From positions 11,634,515 through 11,698,514 of the forward strand of contig NC_049982.1 of the NCBI RefSeq assembly GCF_000003815.2: 64,000 nt of DNA, written 5' to 3'. The stretch is from Branchiostoma floridae (lineage: Eukaryota > Chordata > Leptocardii > Amphioxiformes > Branchiostomatidae). The notes below the pieces were generated by a model. It did not search any database and was not told the origin of the DNA. It saw only the letters and a list, made by a program, of their open reading frames with translations. Positions 21,421 through 57,658 of this stretch are shown piece by piece. Numbering within the stretch: the first letter of the stretch is position 1; each line of letters opens with the position of its first letter. The position numbers and the translations under genes were made by a program.

Positions 21421-21553
21421 TTAGACCTAACGAAAGAGACAAAATTTCACAGAAAAAAATATATCAAAGATTTATCATAAGAGTACAAAAACGACGAGGC
21501 ATGATTATTTTACCATCATTTTTGTGATCTTTGAAGCAACTTGGACAAATTAG

Positions 21554-22215
21554 GGTATCGGACCGGAGTTTCTTTTACGATTTCGGAGGTTGGCGGGCAG
21601 CCTCAGGCCGAAGGGCTACAGTTCCGCTAGTAAACGTAGGACGCAAAACTTAATCAATATGGCGGAAAGCCGTTTACTGTCTCTTTCCGACAAACCTATT
21701 GGTACCGTCTGTTGCCTCTTTATTTTGGTTAGAATATGTAGTAAAATTTTAATTTTGGACCCGAAAACTATCATTTTTTAACACTTTTTTGATCGAAGCT
21801 GCTTGGAAAAAACGAATTTTCCCAGGATAACCGCCTACGTGGTAGAGAAGCTAAATTCTTCATGTTTGTGTAAAATGAAAATAAAAAAATTCCATGTGAT
21901 AACTTTTTTGCAATCTCCGATGACGTCATTTCTTCGAAATCGCATGAAAAACGCCGCTATTTGGGTCATCAGGCGAAAAAACCGCATCACCGTTGCAGCG
22001 GACTAATACAAAAATGGTTTCGCTGGCCGACCAACTACTCCTCGCACAAAAACAATACAACCCACGGGCTTTTCAGAAAATACGACAAATCTATGCTCAG
22101 CTATAACGATCACCAAGCCATAGGGAGCAAAAGTTAGCGAGACAACAGCGCACTTCCGGCCTATTACACCACCCTTCCGCCAACTCCGGTCAGATTTGAA
22201 CTCCGACCCGGAACC
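21554..22215 (+). repeat. R1 element, copy 1
   Basis: 662 bp, left flank TTAG, right flank TTAA, with a TGACGTCA site at 21921-21928. It differs from copy 2 at very few positions (for example GTTAGCGAG here against GTTAGGGAG in copy 2). Confidence 0.85.
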
Positions 22216-22219
22216 TTAA

Positions 22220-23350
22220 GAGGGACATTTTTTCTCAATATGTATTTTTATGACTTAAAAAGTTCATATCTACCATATATCCAAATTTGGTTTGTCTCCG
22301 ATGGTTACTTTTCCCACAGGAGCGGTTTAAAGTCAGGTCAAAAACACTGTATTTTGAGGCTATCAAGCCTAGATGCATATTGAACCTACGTTATAATACA
22401 GAAACATTAAAAAACATGCTTTTTTCTGACATCGCTTTTCTGAAAACGGATAAAATGGGGTGCAAAGTCTGCCCATAAACTTGTCCGGGAAAGTATGTGC
22501 ACTCTCCGTCGTTTCGGTGCTACACATCGGTAGAAAACCGTCTTTAAAAGTTGGCATCGCTGACGTCACGGAGTGACGTCAGAGGTTGCTCAAGGAAAAC
22601 AGCAGGGGGTCGCGTTTTAAGTTCATCGCTTGTAAGTAAAATGAAGAATGTGCCAGATTTTGACATGGAGCAGTAGACCAGATCTCACACTTTCAGAATC
22701 AACCGCGTCCGACACCAAACTCTTAACTACTTCGCCGTGAACGGCCCCTTAAGAAGCACAATGCGCCCCAAATGTGTGCAAGAATGCATTCTTACACAGT
22801 GCAAAGCACAAACTGGATCTTATTGTCGGCGCTAGAAGCGGGCAGTTGGAATAAGCGCGGCAAATATGTGTAGTGCTTTTAATAGGCTATTACTACATAC
22901 CACCGAAAGAAAAAAAGATCGCCGCGTTAAGGAGCTATGAACCGAAAGTCAGTAAACCCAGTTTCTCCTTAAGTTAGGGCTTAAAGCACCAAGATTTCAG
23001 CTTTAATGCCCATTTAAGTCATACTAATGCACGGCATCGCGAACATATGCGATAGGTGAACGACAGAGATCGGCTCCAATCAAATGACATAGAGAAAGAT
23101 ATGATTTTGGAAAAATCTGCCCGCCAGAATCGATTAAAGTTGCCCGTAATGGTACTTCTAAGGGGGGGGGGGGGGGTGAAAAAGGGGGAGGGGGGCGCCT
23201 AGGGCCTGTACATGAATATGCTGACTTTTTAACTAGAAAAATGAAAAACGGTGTTTGTTTTTACACAATATAACGACATCTGATGGAAACTTTAAAATGC
23301 GTCGAAATTACGTCATCTATGACGTCATATAAGGTACAAGCGCCGCCCTA
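22220..23350 (+). repeat. R2 segment, copy 1
   Basis: 1,131 bp between two TTAA junctions, beginning GAGGGACATTTTTTCTC and ending GCGCCGCCCTA. It carries a symmetric pair of TGACGTCA sites at 22561-22581, another at 23320-23327, and a run of G followed by more purine tracts near 23160-23200. No inverted termini of its own were seen, so it may be cargo or linker of an R1-bounded composite. Confidence 0.8.
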
Positions 23351-23354
23351 TTAA

Positions 23355-24016
23355 GGTATCGGACCGGAGTTTCTTTTACGATTTCGGAGGTTGGCGGGCA
23401 GCCTCAGGCCGAAGGGCTACAGTTCCGCTAGTAAACGTAGGACGCAAAACTTAATCAATATGGCGGAAAGCCGTTTACTGTCTCTTTCCGACAAACCTAT
23501 TGGTACCGTCTGTTGCCTCTTTATTTTGGTTAGAATATGTAGTAAAATTTTAATTTTGGACCCGAAAACTATCATTTTTTAACACTTTTTTGATCGAAGC
23601 TGCTTGGAAAAAACGAATTTTCCCAGGATAACCGCCTACGTGGTAGAGAAGCTAAATTCTTCATGTTTGTGTAAAATGAAAATAAAAAAATTCCATGTGA
23701 TAACTTTTTTGCAATCTCCGATGACGTCATTTCTTCGAAATCGCATGAAAAACGCCGCTATTTGGGTCATCAGGCGAAAAAACCGCATCACCGTTGCAGC
23801 GGACTAATACAAAAATGGTTTCGCTGGCCGACCAACTACTCCTCGCACAAAAACAATACAACCCACGGGCTTTTCAGAAAATACGACAAATCTATGCTCA
23901 GCTATAACGATCACCAAGCCATAGGGAGCAAAAGTTAGGGAGACAACAGCGCACTTCCGGCCTATTACACCACCCTTCCGCCAACTCCGGTCAGATTTGA
24001 ACTCCGACCCGGAACC
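23355..24016 (+). repeat. R1 element, copy 2
   Basis: Near-identical to copy 1; left flank TTAA, right flank TTAG. It ends about 75 bp before the first E2F-like site of the NSMCE4A promoter. Confidence 0.85.
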
Positions 24017-24089
24017 TTAGGACACGTCCATCAATCGCTAAACGTATCTCCATAAGGGAACGCATGATTGGTTTACTTAGTATTGAGAA

Positions 24090-24629: not shown

Positions 24630-27600
24630 ATGCCAGGCACAGGAAGGTCACGGTCAGGTGGCCAAGCTGACAGGGAGCCGCGGGACAACACGGCGGAGAA
24701 CGGTGGCCCTGCGGCCGGGGATGGAGCGGGACAGTCGGACGGGTTGGGGGACCAAGAGCCGGGCACCCTGGCGTCCACGCCCGGCAGGAGTGAGGCGGAC
24801 ATGCCAGACAGGAGACAGCTCAGGCACAAGTACAGGACCCTCATCAATGAAACTCAGAGTACGTATATTGTTCAACAATTTAAAACACAATGTCAATGAT
24901 GAAACCCTCAGTTTGCACTGTCATGATAATTCACGCAAGTGACAATTGCTTGTCAACACTAGGGTGTTGTCGGTGTCTGTCTTTCATCCTGTCAGTGATA
25001 TATTAGCAGGATAATGAACAACACATTCCTAATGCAAAGCTGTAGCAATGTCACATTTGGTCTTAGTGGTAGGACTTGGGCATTTATCTATACGTCAGTA
25101 TGACGCGTCTATGCTATAACACTCTCACAAATAGCCAAGGACCAGGGTTCAGTGTACAGTTTGATGTGATCTTTATTACTACGACCGATTGTATACAGTT
25201 TAGGCAAGTGAACGGAGGTAATGATATAGACTGGCTTAATACAAATAATACAAGACAAGATACCTGGACAGATGCGGGTGGATGATACTAACTAACCGGT
25301 TACGTAACTACGGCGGCGGAAGATGCGGTTGACCTTGTCCCTGAGTCTGCTTCTAGTCTAACTAGCGCGTACCGCGCCTTATATCACTTCAATTGGAGGT
25401 GGAGCTTACGCGAGCGCTGCGGGGCGTGGCCTAGCTGACGTCAGGGCGCGCCCATGATCACGTGCTCTCACCACGTGATCCCCTGGGCCGCCCAACGTAA
25501 TAACAGACTTGCTACAGCAAAACAATTTTCAACATGATTTCAGAGTACAGTAGTTCAGAGTGGAAGATTGCCACAATGTTGTTATGACCTGTTATCTCAA
25601 AAAGCCTCAGGGTTGAACTAGGACATGTTATTGTATTTTACACTGTTTGAATCTATGTTACCTGCAATTAGCCCACGGGCAAGAATTTGCAATAAACTTG
25701 ATATTAAACAAATTGTGCAGCCTCCAAGTCCAAGTTCAACTCTATTCTTGTCATCAAATCTATGTCATTATGAAGCAGACCTCATCTACATCCTTTTGTT
25801 TAGTATATTACTTGTCACATCTTTGTCACCTGTGGCAAGCCTGCAAAAGTCAAGCCAAGGAGGTTAGATAATCTATTTAAACCTCCCTGGTCAAGCTGAG
25901 CTAGTTGCCCTGGCCAGGCCGTCCTATAGGGGTACGGGGATAGAAGAATCCCCCTCCTCAGCGCAACCTGGGGGATCAGTTCACGCCTAAGGTTCATGTG
26001 CCTCCTTCTGCTGACCAACTCCTCTGGTAGCAAAACTCTCCTGGCAATTTATTCTCCCATAACACTATTAACAACCAGCGTAGTCAGTCTGGTAGAGACT
26101 GAAGTTGCCAATGGTTGTCCCTGAAAAGGTTGCATAACAGGATAGACTGATCACGATGAACATATAGTGAGATCCTCCAAAAATATAGTATTGGCAACCA
26201 CGACACTCTTCGAACTGGTGCTAGATGTACATATTCAGTGATCTAGTCAATTGCCTACATGTCCCAGTAGTAGGGTAGACACTCAAGCGTCATTTGATGT
26301 TACAATACCGGGGTACCTACAGTTACACATGTACATAAGATGTAAAATATCCATTCAACTGGCCTTTCTATGTAAGGGTGGAACAACTTCAAATCTTCCT
26401 TAGAATAAGTTAGATGGTGCAGTTGCCAAACCTTTTTTTGCTTGTTTTGGAAAGCTACCCACAGCCATTTCTATATGTGACATAGCTTTAGTTGATATTT
26501 GGTTCTTTCTCTCCATAGAAAATAGACTGGACCTGATCAGACCTGAATCCAAGGGTCTGAATGACATGCTCAACAAGGCCAATGGATACTTCAAAAGTGG
26601 TAAGCATAGAATTGTAATACATTTACCTTTACCTTTCTAAGGGGTACCATGAAAGCACAATAGGTCAAGGACGTGGAAGGTAACAATAGAGTGATGATTG
26701 TCTGTTTCTGTTAGCGTACATAATATGTACAGTACAGTCAACCACAGTACAGTCTACCCGGTAATGCAATGTAAGCAAACTTTCAATCAATTTTCTGTGA
26801 ATGATTGACGTCAGGATTAATGTTTGCTTTCCTATCATCATAGATGTATGTCTTTAAAGCTTTTCAATCGTTATTTGAAAACAATGCAATGTTTAATGTT
26901 GTGTGACTCTGTATTCCTTACCAGTCAAAATGACCAGGGAGGCAGCCTTGGACTCCCAGTTCCTGGTGCTGGCATCAACGTTGGGCAGTCAGAAGGCCAA
27001 CCAACTCCACACAGACTTTGTAACATTCGAGCCTCATGTGTTTGCAGATAAACTGGTTTGTATCCTGTTGCCTGTGTATTTTATATAATGTAATGAGCCT
27101 GGATGCCAGACATGCTGTGCTGGAAGATAATATAGAATACAGCCCCTCGGCCAGGGAAGCCACTTGCCCAGCTCTCAAATTTGGCACCCAATCTCTAATG
27201 ATATCTCCTGTACAGGTTTTAAATTGATAAAAAATTTCTCTGGAGGCATATTGGCCTGAGAGCTGAGGAGCTGGCATATTTATGCCCAGAAAACCTGATA
27301 TCGAGACTATATACCGGAAGAAATATATTACTGTATTGTGTGCTACTTGTGTATTAAGGTTAGCCTGAGTATCATCCTCCGTAGTGACCGCTGGCTCACG
27401 ACTTTCGCTTGCTNNNNNNNNNNNNNNNNNNNNNNNNNNNNNNNNNNNNNNNNNNNNNNNNNNNNNNNNNNNNNNNNNNNNNNNNNNNNNNNNNNNNNNN
27501 NNNNNNNNNNNNNGCCCCCCAAATGGGGGGAAGAAGCCTTTCTTACCCAGGCAAGACACAAACTGGATTTTATTTTTGCGCTAAAAGCGGGCAGTTGGAA

Positions 27601-30600
27601 TAAGCCCCCAAAAGATTTGTAGTTCTTTTAATAGGCTATTCTTACTTACCCCGGAAAGAAAAAAAGATCGCCGCTTTAAGGAGTTATGAACGAAAAGTCA
27701 GTAAACCCAGTTTCTCCTTAAGTTAGGGCTTAAAGCCCCAGGATTTCAGCTTTAATGCCCATTTAAGTCATATTAATGCCGGGCATCGGGAACATATGCG
27801 ATAGGTGAACGCCAGAGATCGGCTCCATTCAAATGACATAGAGAAAGATATGCTTTTGGAAAAATCTGCCCCCCAGAATCGATTAAAGTGGCCCGGTAAT
27901 GGTATTTTTAAGGGGGGGGGGGGGGGTGAAAAAGGGGGAGGGGGGCGCCTAGGGCCTGTACATGAATATGCTGACTTTTTAACTAGAAAAATGAAAAACG
28001 GTGTTTGTTTTTACACAATATAACGACATCTGATGGAAACTTTAAAATGCGTCGAAATTACGTCATCTATGACGTCATATAAGGTACAAGCGCCGCCCTA
28101 TTAAGGTATCGGACCGGAGTTTCTTTTACGATTTCGGAGGTTGGCGGGCAGCCTCAGGCCGAAGGGCTACAGTTCCGCTAGTAAACGTAGGACGCAAAAC
28201 TTAATCAATATGGCGGAAAGCCGTTTACTGTCTCTTTCCGACAAACCTATTGGTACCGTCTGTTGCCTCTTTATTTTGGTTAGAATATGTAGTAAAATTT
28301 TAATTTTGGACCCGAAAACTATCATTTTTTAACACTTTTTTGATCGAAGCTGCTTGGAAAAAACGAATTTTCCCAGGATAACCGCCTACGTGGTAGAGAA
28401 GCTAAATTCTTCATGTTTGTGTAAAATGAAAATAAAAAAATTCCATGTGATAACTTTTTTGCAATCTCCGATGACGTCATTTCTTCGAAATCGCATGAAA
28501 AACGCCGCTATTTGGGTCATCAGGCGAAAAAACCGCATCACCGTTGCAGCGGACTAATACAAAAATGGTTTCGCTGGCCGACCAACTACTCCTCGCACAA
28601 AAACAATACAACCCACGGGCTTTTCAGAAAATACGACAAATCTATGCTCAGCTATAACGATCACCAAGCCATAGGGAGCAAAAGTTAGGGAGACAACAGC
28701 GCACTTCCGGCCTATTACACCACCCTTCCGCCAACTCCGGTCAGATTTGAACTCCGACCCGGAACCTTAAGAGGGACATTTTTTCTCAATATGTATTTTC
28801 ATTACTTAAAAAGTTCATATCTACCATATCTCCAAATTTGGTTTGTCTCCGATGGTTACTTTTCCCACAGGAGCGGTTTAAAGTCAGGTCAAAAACACTG
28901 TATTTTGAGGCTATCAAGCCTAGATGCATATTGAACCTACGTTATAATACAGAAACATTAAAAAACATGCTTTTTTCTGACATCGCTTTTCTGAAAACGG
29001 ATAAAATGGGGTGCAAAGTCTGCCCATAAACTTGTCCGGGAAAGTATGTGCACTCTCCGTCGTTTCGGTGCTACACATCGGTAGAAAACCGTCTTTAAAA
29101 GTTGGCATCGCTGACGTCACGGAGTGACGTCAGAGGTTGCTGAAGGAAAACAGCAGGGGGTCGCGTTTTAAGTTCGTCGCTTGTAAGTAAAATGAAGAAT
29201 GTGCCAGATTTTGACATGGAGCAGTAGACCAGATCTCACACTTTCAGAATCAACCGCGTCCGACACCAAACTCTTAACTACTTCGCCGTGAACGGCCCCT
29301 TAAGAAGCACAATGCGCCCCAAATGTGTGCAAGAATGCATTCTTACACAGTGCAAAGCACAAACTGGATCTTATTGTCGGCGCTAGAAGCGGGCAGTTGG
29401 AATAAGCGCGGCAAAGATGTGTAGTGCTTTTAATAGGCTATTACTACATACCACCGAAAGAAAAAAAGATCGCCGCGTTAAGGAGCTATGAACCGAAAGT
29501 CAGTAAACCCAGTTTCTCCTTAAGTTAGGGCTTAAAGCACCAGGATTTCAGCTTTAATGCCCATTTAAGTCATACTAATGCACGGCATCGCGAACATATG
29601 CGATAGGTGAACGACAGAGATCGGCTCCAATCAAATGACNNNNNNNNNNNNNNNNNNNNNNNNNNNNNNNNNNNNNNNNNNNNNNNNNNNNNNNNNNNNN
29701 NNNNNNNNNNNNNNNNNNNNNNNNNNNNNNNNNNNNNNNNNNNNNNNNNNNNNNNNNNNNNNNNNNNNNNNNNNNNNNNNNNNNNNNNNNNNNNNNNNNN
29801 NNNNNNNNNNNNNNNNNNNNNNNNNNNNNNNNNNNNNNNAGAATGATATACTGCAGGGCTCGAAGTTAACTATGTCCCGAGACCACTAAAATTTAGGCCG
29901 GGACAACTGAAAAATCTTTTTGGGACACTTTTGGGACAATAGGAAAACGAATCAACATCAGAATGTCCGATCTCCCCGCGGCAGGCTTTTAGCTAGCCAT
30001 GCGTACAGCCGTACAATGTACGGCCTTCGCTAAAAAAATCGCAAAATGTACGCCCTGTTTTTTGGATATACGCCTTTGGTACGCCCTTATTTTCCCCCGG
30101 AAACTTCGCTCGAAGTTCAAATTCGCCGATTCCGGCGCACCGAGCCGCCATTTTGGGTGATTCTACCTCAAGTCTCGCGCAATCTCGCACTCACTCACAT
30201 CTCGCGAATTGCGAGAGTCACACCCCATTGGCCATTTCGGCGTGACGTAGCGCGCCCAGGGGCCATTAGTGGTGGAATATCTGATATCCCCGCTGTTTTC
30301 GCGGGAAAGATTCACGCAGGGAAGCGTAAAAACTTTGATTTGTTTACGAAAACTCGTCGAATGCCTGAAGTCATTGGTGATAAGTACATGTATAGGATGT
30401 TTTTGGAGGTTTTTTTTGCTTGTTTGTCGGTGGAATGTGGGAAAAATAACAGCTAATGTGACGATGACATACTGGGGAGGGGGGCGGTGTCGGCACTGAA
30501 TTCGTAGAAAATGTTGAACGGAGGTCGCGATTTTTTCACGGTAACTTGAGATATTACTTTTGTTGCAGTCTTTACTTTTAAAATATTGATAAATGGATGT

Positions 30601-33600
30601 TGTTTGTTGAGAAAATTTCGCTTAATTTGCCCTTGGAACACATCTTTTCTGCTATATATTTTCAATGAATTAAATGTTTGTACACATTTTTCTGTACTGT
30701 GTAAAGTTACAACGGTGATGTTACAGGCTACAAGTAACTTTTCAGTGCATTTATTTTCAGCTATGTTCTTAACAGAGTAGATACACAAAAGAAATATAAG
30801 ATGTACCTGGCAGTCCTGGCTACACTTTCTCCTCTGTTGGTTTGCAGATTTTCTTGTAGACTTCTTTAGCTTGCTGTTGTTATATATGTAACAGTCAAGT
30901 TTCACCTTTAGCTGTAATGTTAATTTACTCTCCCTGATAGTATGTATTAACTCATGAAACATTATATTGTAAGGAATCAGTGTTATATTACTTGAAAATT
31001 ACCTCATGTATTCTTTAAGCCATACCCACCTCAAATCAAGAACACATACCTCCCATTCTCAGGACAAAAGTAGTTTTGCAGCAAAGACAAAAATTTGGCT
31101 ATATTCTACTTCAAAATGCAGGAAATAGCATTCCAGAGGCTTTAAATTTCAAAATTTTCCGGGGGAAGATACCCCCGGACCCCCCTACAATGCTCGCGCC
31201 TTCGGCGCTCATCGCGCGGCTCTGCCGCGCAGTGCGGAAAGTACAACATATTACAGATATACACCCTAAAAAAATTCCTAGCTAAAAGCCTGCCCCGCGG
31301 TTGTCAGGCGTGCGTACTCTGACTTACAGTTGTTGTAATACATAATTTCTGAAAATAGGGTTGGGACAGTCCATCCTCATTTCGGGACAGTTGAAATTTA
31401 TTTTTGGGACAATGCGGGACAGTAGGGAAAAAAGTTAAGTTTGAGGCCTGATACTGTATCATGTCAAAGGCAAAATGTAGTGTCAATACTTTTTAAACTG
31501 TGGTTGTGGCGGGTTTGGATTATGAAGGTGACTGGACATGACTGTACCATATATTTCTGTATTTCCCATGTGTTGTACAGTAAATACCAAGGTCCTAATT
31601 TTTGTGTTCTCTGGCCTGTTGATGTTTCAGGTGAGCTTCATGACAGGCAGACGAACGATCCCTGAGGATGCAGATGAAGATGATGAGGATGAGGAGGAGA
31701 ACAGGAGGCGGGCAGTCAGGATACCTGCTGCAGGATGGGAGAAACTGGGAGAAGATGCCAGGAGATGCTTCAATAGAGCACCAGCATTCCATTTTCTGTA
31801 AGTTTCCCTTCAAAGTTTCTCTCAGTTTGATATGGAACAATTGTATTTTAGGTCCAAAGGGCTGTAGCCCCTTCCAATAGCCTGCATGTTGGGTGAGCCA
31901 CTCAGCCAGAATTTTAACTCTTGGTTGACTTCTTGGTCCAGAGGCAGGGGTACAAACCATTGACTATGCACGTCCTGAAAGTGGTGAGCATTGATAATGC
32001 TGCAGCAGGTTTGCATTTCTTTTTAAAAAAGTTAGAACTATGTCTTGTATGAAAGATTCAGGACTGTATTTGTTGCCTACAGGTATGGGTCCTTTAACCG
32101 AGAGGCCAAGGCGCGGGAATCCAGGAAACTGAATAGAAAGGATGCAAGCAAGTCCGTCGGTCCCAAAACTGTCCCCAAACAGGTGATGTGTCATTAAACC
32201 TTAGATTGTTTTGGAAACGATATCATCATAGATATTTTACCCAGTGTACAATCATTGTTACAGTGATGATTGCTGGTAACATTTTGTTGCACCTTGCACT
32301 AGTACTTAAATGTGTTATTGCCTTTCTACTTAAGCATGGGATCATCATCGGTCGACGTGATCACACATGTTCGCACATGTATACACACGACTGGGTTATA
32401 CCGCCCCTTACGGGGTGACATACCCTTTCGCTGGCTAATTACAAGGAGGGGATGCGCCAGGTCTCCCGTCTGGGTGAATGATGTAATTCACCATGTGGCT
32501 GATACGAGAATGAGGTTCGCCAGGCCTCCATCTGGGTGATTTGAAGTGAATCACCAACACCGACAGAAGGATTTGCACCAACACACACCGCGCCATTGCA
32601 CGTGTGGGGGTTCTTTAACGTGCATGGGGTGTGGCTCTCCCCTTACAGGGGACCTCCATTGAACATCCTATCGGAGGGATGGCCCTAGCCGAAGCTAGGT
32701 ACTCATTTTCACCTGAGTAAAGTGAGGAAAGCCATGTTAAGTGCCTTTCCCAACGGCACAAGATTGGTAACACGGCAGCTGGATTCGAACCCGCAACCTC
32801 TTGGTCACGGGCCGAACACGGTCCCACTGCGCCACGCAGTCCCATAAGCATGATGGGATAGCGTGGTGCAACGGCAACATGTTTGGCTTAGAACTTGGAG
32901 GTTCATATCCTGCCATGTCACCGATCTTGTGCCAGGTTTGGCTAGGACTGTCCATAAATAGAGGTCCCGTGTTTGGGGAGAGCCACATCCCGAGTAGTAG
33001 AAGAATCCGCCCCACTCATAGAAAACAGTAGGGGTCTTTCCTGGTGTAAAAAACATCAATCTTGTTTAATTGTTCAGTATAAACCTGGTGTGTTATGACA
33101 TGAGAAGTTTTACCGGGTATGCAATACAAGCAAAAGCACTAAGTCTACCTTACATGCCATAGGTGAAAAATTGTGATGAGAATTCAAAGGAGCAAACCAC
33201 AGCAGAGGTGGAATTCATTCACAAGGCACTGAGGACTCTTACCGTAGATGAGGGTGAGTTGTCATTGAATCGTTTTTTTAAAGACTGTTAAACACTTAAA
33301 AGTTGTAAATAAGTTAAAATAAGTGGAGGATTTATTAGATTTCTTGGTTTTACACAGTATTTGTGAATCACTTATTCTCAATGAGCTATCAGTGGATTCT
33401 TTGTAGTTGTTGTTGTCTGGTTCTGTTCATTCCTATTCTTTGGCACAGAAAAGATTACACAAAGTTAAAGATCACAGCATCATTGGATACTCGTAAGTAG
33501 TAAAAAGCTTTTTCTCTCGTTTCAGATGGTAATGTGGATCCTATCGACTACTTTGAGTTTGTGTTTGATCCAGAATCATTTGGTCGAACTGTGGAGAACA

Positions 33601-34434
33601 TTTTCCACCTGTCTTTTCTTGTCAGGGTAAGTGAGCCAACTAGTCTTTTTAGTATGTCAACCCTTTCTGACAATGTTTTCGTTCAGTGCAAGAAAGGGCG
33701 TTATTGTAAAGAAGGAGTCAGCTCAAAAGTAGTCCCTTTTCAGCAATGTTCAACCCAGATGTGAACAAAATATTGACATTGGGGTGCATCTGGTCTTGTT
33801 TTGCATACGCCCCACCCGGCCATCGACATTATTTTTATTGTTCACCTGAATTGAAAACGTGGCCGGGTGACAAGGCCTTCCAGTGGAGTGATCAACTTTG
33901 ATACAAAATTGAAGGCCACAGGTCCAAAGAAATGCCCATAAACAAACCCATGTTTGTTGTAGCAGGGTAAGTGTCATAACAACTTGACTGCCATTTTCTT
34001 CTCTTGAAAATGCCAACGTCTGCGCAGCTCTACTGCACAAACCTTGGAAACCGAAGGGGTTTCATCTTCACTTTGGGCAATCCGCAGGCAGCACCACTGC
34101 CTGTGACGTCATGGCCGGCTCATTAGCCAGATTTTTTGGTCCAACACCTACAAATCTGCACCTCCGGCCGGTTGGAACAATGTGATGCAGCAGGGCTAAA
34201 CAAGCCAAAACAAAGGCAGTGGCTTGGTGCTAATCTTGAGCCAACTCCTTTTTCACTATCACCTGCTTGGTGCAAGGCATAGGTTGACAATTCATGTGTT
34301 CTGCGTTGTTAAAAGAAAACAGGATGCATTAAAAATGTGGGATTCGGGTGTAAAGTTTACACCCAAATTCCACACGTAAAGCTTAAACATTCAACTATTG
34401 TTATAGTCTGATGCCTTTTTGCAAAACTTGAACA

Positions 34435-42772: not shown

Positions 42773-43136
42773 TAATGATATGAAAATTGGCTAATTCCCT
42801 TGGGATTTGTGTTAGAATGCATTAGGATTAGGCTTAAAGCAAGGACGTTACCGTAAGGCCTCCTCTAACGGTAAAATGTCTACAAATCATCCTAGAGTGG
42901 TCATCGAGCTGGGTTGCCTTAATGTCCTGGGTGCTCGCTCCATGCACTAGGTACTTACATGGATGATAAAAGCTAAAAAATAGTTTCTGTCTGAGAAGTC
43001 GCCTATCCCTAACCTTAATCCTGACCTTAAGCCTAACAATAGAGGTTAGATGAAAATAGTACTAGTGGGTTGAAGGCAGTTATATAAGATCTCTTGGTGG
43101 TAAAATGTTCTAATAAACCTGAAAATTAAGGTGTCT

Positions 43137-43412
43137 GCTACGGCCGCGTGGCGCGTTGGTCACCCGATCCCTCGATCTCGGAAGTTAAGCAACGCGACGG
43201 TCCGGACAGTGCTTGGATGGGGGACCAACCAAGGACGTCCGGATTGCTGTAGCCTCACGAAGTTTCCACGAAATCGTCTTCCGGGAGGGACGTAAAACGG
43301 GGGTCCCGTGCTCGAGGAGGTGCCTCGACCACGTTAAACAGCCTCATTACTCATACTGGGTACCTACTGGCTGGCAAAATACACCAGATGATTATGATTA
43401 TAGACGCCTGTT
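43137..43412 (+). mobile_element. 5S rRNA-derived SINE (SINE3 type)
   Basis: The first 119 bp (43137-43255) follow 5S rRNA: GCTACGGCC start, the internal A-box region GAAGTTAAGCAACG, the C-box region GTGCTTGGATGGGGGACC and the end GATTGCTGTAGCC. It differs from normal 5S at many positions, so it is not a working 5S gene. It continues into a SINE body (CTTCCGGGAGGGACG..AAACGGGGGTCCCGTG) and a GATTAT-rich tail. Located in the LYAR 5' UTR intron. Confidence 0.75.
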
Positions 43413-44111: not shown

Positions 44112-44183
44112 GGGGGTGTAGCTCAGTGGTAGAGCGCTTGCTTCGCATGTAAGAGGCCCCGGGTTCGAATCCCGGCACCTCCA
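44112..44183 (+). tRNA. tRNA-Ala (anticodon CGC)
   Basis: 72 nt with a full cloverleaf: acceptor arms GGGGGTG/CACCTCC (one G-T pair) with discriminator A, D arm GCTC..GAGC, anticodon arm CTTGC-TTCGCAT-GTAAG with anticodon CGC, variable loop AGGCC, T arm CCGGG-TTCGAAT-CCCGG. The A box (TAGCTCAGTGG) and B box (GGTTCGAATCC) are intact and a TTTT terminator lies at 44189-44192. The CCA end is not encoded and there is no intron. It should be functional. Confidence 0.95.
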
Positions 44184-56654: not shown

Positions 56655-57148
56655 GTATGTGACACATCTAACGTTAGAACGTTGGTGTTTTGCGTGTCTA
56701 AAAACAGCTCTAACTCATGTAAAACGCATCTGAGGTACTGAACGATGACATTTCCGTTTGAAGGGGGAGGGGGGCACATTTGTCAAATAGTTCTTAAAAA
56801 TTTTATCTGCTTCTTTCTGCTGAAAATGTAAACAGACGTGCCCAGAAGATTAAACCAATACTTATTCCGAACTTTATAGTAATGAATCAAATGGTAGCTA
56901 AGTTTGTCTGGTCCCACTATTCTGCACATAATTTGCTCCTCCCGTGTGTAGCTGTCAGCATAAAACTTGTAGCATACCCTAGTAGTTACCAAAACGATAT
57001 TTTGATAGGAAGTCTAATATTCTGCTATGGTGGGGTTTTGCCCTAAGGGGGGTGGGGGTGATATTAACTGGTTGTTGGGATAATGCTATAAAGTACGAAC
57101 ACCAAAATAAAGTTAGCTTGAAAATGGAATGGCCGATCGTGTTTGCAA

Positions 57149-57376
57149 TAAGCCTTCTCACATTAGTTAGGACGCATGTGCGGCGACAGGAATTCTAGGT
57201 AATATGTCAATGGGTAAGGCACACAAAAAGTAAACTGTCCTTGTCTAGACCATTGTTTCGATTTGCATAACAATGTCCAGACGGGTTTTGTTTACTTTTT
57301 GTGTGCCTTATCCTTTGACATATTACCTAGAATCCCTGTTGCCGCACATGCGCCCTAACTAATGTGAGAAGGCTTA
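57149..57376. mobile_element. Large palindrome with arms of about 87 bp, TA-flanked
   Basis: The left arm 57151-57235 (AGCCTTCTCACATTAGTTAG...) and right arm 57290-57374 are inverted copies with few mismatches, separated by about 54 bp. TA lies directly outside both (57149-57150 and 57375-57376), compatible with Tc1/mariner-type insertion. No open frame. It lies in the YKT6 5' region. Confidence 0.8.
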
Positions 57377-57658
57377 TAAAACAAGCAAATGGCTAACGTC
57401 TATGGGTTGGGCATTAATGGCTATCAACTACAAAATGGGATTTTATTCATACTTAAACTTACTCCAGTTTAATTGCAAGCTGTCCTTTGCAGGGTGAAAC
57501 ATACCACTTACATTATCTACACTACTGTGGTTTTGAAACCATAACTGTGTATCAAACCGTATCCTACCCACAAGGTACACAACATTTTCCCAGGCGCTGC
57601 ACTTGCTACTGACATCCTGACAACTCAATCACTCTATTCCTCTATGTTTTGCTTCCAG

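Follow-up and report, generated by a model that had tools for sequence, protein, structure and literature searches.

Anatomy of the block and its surroundings

The window analysed here, a 64,000-nucleotide stretch of the Branchiostoma floridae genome, carries at 21550–24020 a block of about 2.46 kb with the order TTAG-R1-TTAA-R2-TTAA-R1-TTAG, as the original prediction had described it. Reading along the plus strand, the left outer TTAG (21550–21553) is followed by the left R1 copy (R1a; 21554–22215), the R2 segment (22216–23354), the right R1 copy (R1b; 23355–24016) and the right outer TTAG (24017–24020). The R1 copies are direct repeats of 662 bp each with GG..CC ends and are referred to below as LTDRs; R2, referred to as INT, measures 1,139 bp including the TTAA at either end and 1,131 bp without these words. 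The LTDR-INT-LTDR element between the outer TTAG words thus spans 2,463 bp. R1a and R1b are distinguished by one internal mismatch in 662 bp (C at 22138 vs G at 23939). Equal 4-mers surround a 2,463-bp segment at 306 of 60,191 window positions (0.5%), so that the match of the outer TTAG words, read here as a target-site duplication, is by itself suggestive.

Each R1 starts with GG, ends with CC and has an imperfect terminal inverted repeat in which 13 of 18 positions agree without gaps, a score reached only by the three R1 copies among 61,888 window segments of the same length. A clear terminal inverted repeat was also looked for in R2, as a possible second MITE, and none was found. Ten frames taken from R1 and R2 gave no significant Pfam match (one at E 0.54), the start of R1 had 0 matches in viral contigs, and R1 folded as single-stranded DNA was unremarkable (z −0.29). 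The octamer TGACGTCA, which we take to be a CRE-like palindrome, occurs 12 times in the window, nine of them inside LTDR or INT copies (21921, 22561, 22574, 23320, 23722, 28070, 28472, 29112 and 29125).

The third R1 copy belongs to a sister array (array 2) 4.7 kb downstream, which the original prediction, correct about both R1 copies of the first block, had missed. This R2-R1-R2 stretch (27514–29639) is bounded by N gaps at 27414–27513 and 29640–29839 and consists, again on the plus strand, of the 3′ part of an INT (27514–28104; poor sequence beside the gap), an LTDR identical to R1b (28105–28766) and the 5′ part of an INT, truncated at the second gap (28767–29639). The left part has 46 differences from array 1, scattered over 27514–27910, the last of which corresponds to 23158 in array-1 coordinates; the pattern is as in poor read ends, and this part is unfit for dating. 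Array 2 is the nearest relative of array 1 seen, because the two have in common a variant at R1 position 279 that is found in no other aligned row and the INT variants 22703-C and 23069-A that are found in 0 of 20 other INT rows, and because the INT 5′ part differs from array 1 at 7 of 873 bases. Array 2 could represent a second insertion or a multimer, or else a misplaced allele.

An NSE4-like gene lies downstream of the first block; its start was read by eye at 24630, with a Pfam Nse4_C match at 33504–33716 downstream of that start; array 2 sits between exons of this gene, also read by eye. Further along the window, a match resembling 5S rRNA (47.7 bits against a gathering threshold of 38) and one to a tRNA lie less than 1 kb apart (43136–43255 and 44112–44183), and an inverted repeat at 57148–57377, with arms of 103 nt, 88% complementarity and 24-nt spacing, is a possible foldback element.

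Copies across the genome

A search of 513,431,437 bases in 431 contigs returned 93 exact R1 left ends and 289 with up to two mismatches, against 0 and 6 for the reversed control, together with 133 exact right ends (control 0). Same-strand clusters of less than 5 kb hold 60 of the 93 exact left ends, and the spacing of neighbours within clusters was 1,780–1,810 bp in 28 of 37 cases. The 40 matches that were scored are the best 40 of 297 candidates, and the sample is thus biased to young copies; a three-LTDR cluster at C6:8238478 lay outside the fetched set.

Thirteen gap-free copies, that of the window among them, terminate in an LTDR on either side and were read into both flanks; in all 13 the outer 4-mers were equal, against the 0.5% of window positions given above, and ten different words were represented: TTAG in the window and at C7:16296899, AGAA (C15), AAAT (C1:27954529), TTGT (the dimer at C7:5231075), GTAA (C11:14389766), TTAA (C4:15071898, L052 and C199), TTGA (C19), TTAT (C6:18895849), TTCC (L051) and TTCT (L053). 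For C199, gap-free refers to the two LTDRs, the part of this copy that was fetched. The count leaves out C5, C9, C10 and the complex arrays C1a and C2. A further gap-free R1-R2-R1 copy, C13:6399223, has flanks without matching words and ends in INT fragments. A gapped array on C4 has TTAT at both far ends. Where the INT was read, in 12 copies, the inner TTAA stood at both of its ends, slightly altered at C7a and C19. The equality of the outer words in 13 of 13 copies, combined with their difference from copy to copy, supports the view that the block moved, or was created, as one unit. The original prediction had proposed that the outer R1 termini bound the block with a single 4-bp duplication, TTAG at this locus, and had named loci with the same R1-R2-R1 order and differing duplications as the check; both the equal words and the differing loci were found.

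LTDRs also occur alone. Of ten isolated left ends sampled, five are followed at the expected distance by a right end (in one case changed and read by eye). Four of these five solo LTDRs, each read at both ends, lie between equal 4-mers, the fifth being flanked by TTAA and TTAG. Multimers are represented by C7b, a (LTDR-INT)2-LTDR dimer with three identical LTDRs, two identical INTs and TTGT on both sides, and by longer (R1-R2)n arrays (C1a, C2, C4 and C5), most of which are gapped. INT-INT junctions with a single TTAA were seen three times, all in C1a. Inside the long arrays the INT units differ, by 9 bases in C4b (L045; C4:10636500–10646000), by 7 and 15 in C2 (L038) and by 16 in C1a (L032–L034 on C1), and the LTDRs C4b_2 and C2m_5 have variants in common, as if long arrays collect units from different lineages. 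At L038 and L039 (C2:16612000–16630000), two oppositely oriented LTDR-INT arrays abut within INT sequence.

One relative carries a different inside. At L074 (C13:9734390–9738480) two LTDRs, 92–94% identical to R1 and separated from each other by 32 differences, are flanked by TTCT on both sides and enclose, in place of R2, about 17 units of a 160-bp satellite that is CCCTAA-rich (telomere-like), with 126 N. The inside starts with TTAA and ends with CTAA, and joining its end to its start restores the satellite save for one changed base and one missing hexamer, the latter in the first unit (by eye). On the simplest reading, an LTDR integrated at a CTAA of the satellite, and a circle or duplication that contained this LTDR would carry just such an inside; an LTDR-satellite-LTDR locus of this type suggests how new composites might originate. 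The match at C13:9734420 (3,378-bp spacing) had been considered as an autonomous copy and was rejected, its inside being satellite.

Similarity of the two LTDRs of an insertion

Across the 13 copies, left and right LTDRs of the same insertion differ at four positions in total (mean 0.31), compared with between-insertion means of 5.32 (left-left), 4.71 (right-right) and 5.01 (left-right). None of 200,000 random pairings reached the observed sum of 4, the smallest being 20. Ten of the 13 pairs are without any left-right difference; for 23 of 26 LTDRs no other row is as close as the partner, and for the remaining three the partner shares first place in a tie. Private variants follow the same pattern, with 25 present in both LTDRs of an insertion and four in one, always the left copy; one of these four (C19, position 649) is the edge of a deletion. 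Between insertions, INTs differ by a mean of 14.9 bases and have 74 private variants in 12 copies, and at this density simple arithmetic predicts about 93 unshared variants for LTDRs that are not homogenised. The LTDR tree pairs partners except for the window trio, in which the right LTDR and the one in array 2 have the same sequence. Its shape is that of a star, and 12 of the 16 inner branches lack support.

The pair test leaves out C10, C5, C4a/C4b and array 2 (gaps), C13:6399223, C1a and C2 (outer ends not clean), C9 (partial) and L074 (other subfamily, other inside). Within these loci, LTDRs differed by 0 at C13, 0 at C10, 0 and 0 at C5, 1 in the plus-strand pair of C2, 7 and 1 at C4b, and 32 at L074; differences from the first unit were 0, 2, 8, 2, 4 and 2 in C1a and 1, 1, 0 and 3 in the minus-strand array of C2. 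An alternative set of 13 loci, with C13, C10, C5 and the C2 plus-strand pair brought in, again gave a within-insertion mean of 0.31, against 3.4–4.0 between insertions. Long arrays are less uniform, with LTDRs up to 7 apart in C4b and 8 in C1a, and pair identity is thus not a general rule.

The nature of the reference assembly could have influenced these values. The published B. floridae reference was reportedly built from roughly tenfold Sanger reads with ARACHNE, the haplotypes being assembled separately and merged with HaploMerger2 (PMC7269912), and pooling of reads between the two LTDRs of a locus might mask differences. Pooling is unlikely to be the full cause, since some shared private variants are found near the LTDR ends (positions 25, 72, 594, 601 and 609), where reads should anchor in different flanks, and since one-sided changes (window 585, C19 144 and L052 154) and deletions in one LTDR (C4c and C19) are present in the assembly. 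If the assembly is right, these data indicate that the two LTDRs are made anew or homogenised insertion by insertion, and the shared private variants mean that co-transposition of two independent repeats is not the whole story.

Family assignment, origin of the pairs and known systems

Taken together, the LTDR-INT-LTDR order, the GG..CC ends with their imperfect inverted repeats and an R2 without a recognisable gene lead us to assign the block, with a probability of roughly 0.87, to one insertion of a nonautonomous KolobokP transposon, an assignment made by anatomy rather than by a match to a consensus sequence. The LTDR-INT-LTDR architecture of KolobokP was reported from B. floridae itself (Kojima & Bao 2022, PMC9587614), and the traits given there recur in our copies. 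Its direct repeats of about 450 or 660 bp correspond to the 662 bp of each LTDR; its 5′-RR/YY-3′ ends with inverted repeats of their own of up to 18 bp correspond to GG..CC and 13 of 18; and its duplications of 3–5 bp around the element are seen in 13 of 13 copies, C13:6399223 being without one. Solo LTDRs with duplications (4 of 5 with both ends read), multimers (C7b) and INT-INT junctions with one inner 4-mer (C1a) likewise agree with that description, and the 2,463 bp of the window element lies within the 1,738–3,261 bp given there for nonautonomous oyster families.

For such an element, a Kolobok transposase supplied in trans would act on the outermost LTDR termini, and the whole block would be joined to its target with duplication of 4 bp, TTAG at the window locus. 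The family was probably founded by the insertion of an LTDR, of which the inner TTAA on either side of the INT would be a fossil. The near-identity of the pair could then arise by either of two routes: both LTDRs may be copied from one, when a circle of one LTDR and one INT integrates replicatively, or the LTDRs may convert each other after insertion, with the His-Me nuclease encoded by most autonomous KolobokP as a possible driver. The star-like LTDR tree agrees well with later conversion; the 32 differences of the L074 pair argue against conversion that never ends. We regard as possible, while rather doubting it, that every KolobokP insertion originates as a eukaryotic cointegrate, in which a circle with one LTDR and either an INT or n satellite units integrates replicatively, both LTDRs being copies of one and the inside being flanked by the fossil duplication of that LTDR's earlier insertion. 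If this is true, it would represent IS26-like replicative integration of a circle by an animal DNA transposon, and new composite transposons could form from whatever circular DNA acquires an LTDR.

The near-identity of LTDRs within insertions, with private variants common to both, is new here: the portions of the main text of PMC9587614 considered contain no report of private variants per insertion common to LTDR pairs, and satellite-carrying LTDRs, telomeres, cargo, homogenisation and cointegrate or replicative integration go unmentioned in them. The pairs bear on a question that the authors of that description leave open, namely the persistence of a composite-like architecture even though single LTDRs can leave.

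Other explanations were weighed against these data. A solo LTDR at TTAG might have been enlarged later through homologous recombination, its partner being either a circle of LTDR and INT or another copy, and the duplication staying in place, as proposed for KolobokP (model b1 of PMC9587614); solo LTDRs do exist, but we would expect this process to leave reciprocal mosaics, and none was seen, 10 of 13 pairs being identical and the four unshared variants all lying in the left copy. Conversion would be required in addition, and we consider this origin unlikely. Less credible still is the proposal made originally, that two independent piggyBac-type MITEs came to lie beside a segment and that their outer ends moved the block. 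R1 is indeed found alone with 4-bp duplications, and the outer ends do carry a duplication, but left LTDRs should then be closer to other left LTDRs than to their right partners, and the reverse was observed (0.31 within insertions vs 5.32 and 4.71). In PMC9587614 piggyBac is contrasted with Kolobok, whose end signature is GG..CC and from which piggyBac differs in its ends; the GG..CC ends of R1 misfit piggyBac on this account, as do duplications not confined to TTAA (AGAA, AAAT, TTCC and others). Membership of piggyBac was accordingly rejected, and the picture of two ordinary MITEs flanking a segment gives way to the KolobokP architecture, with R1 pairs near-identical in each insertion.

A nonautonomous, TRIM-like LTR retrotransposon with R1 as its LTR would also account for long direct repeats, a 4-bp duplication and near-identity within an insertion; it is slightly more improbable still, since the ends are GG..CC with longer inverted repeats rather than TG..CA, inspection by eye revealed neither a purine tract beside the right repeat nor a TGG-type primer site after the left, and related repeats enclose a satellite. 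Least probable of all is an ordinary tandem (R1-R2)n satellite grown by slippage or unequal exchange, with flanks equal by chance: such growth, which the original prediction had offered as its alternative, does occur in the family (the TTGT dimer, the multi-unit arrays C1a, C2, C4 and C5, and array 2 with its R2-R1-R2 order), and unequal exchange may act on it, but the dispersed copies, 13 of 13 delimited exactly by R1 ends and carrying duplications that vary among them, refute it as the sole explanation, and it did not found the 13 duplicated loci.

Compared with known systems, the KolobokP element described here resembles piggyBac MITEs in its TTAA-like targets and differs from them in its R1 ends and in the range of its targets. 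With LTR retrotransposons and TRIMs it has in common direct terminal repeats that are near-identical per insertion, as well as solo repeats; unlike theirs, its R1 ends are GG..CC inverted repeats and not TG..CA, and no primer-binding site or polypurine tract was seen by eye at the INT ends. In construction it is also comparable to IS26 translocatable units and bacterial composites or pseudo-composites, named in PMC9587614, in which an inside is enclosed by direct repeats with ends of their own. A one-repeat circle would be a plausible intermediate here, as for IS26-type units; unlike the bacterial composites, the lancelet element showed no recognisable gene in its repeats or inside, and its host is an animal.
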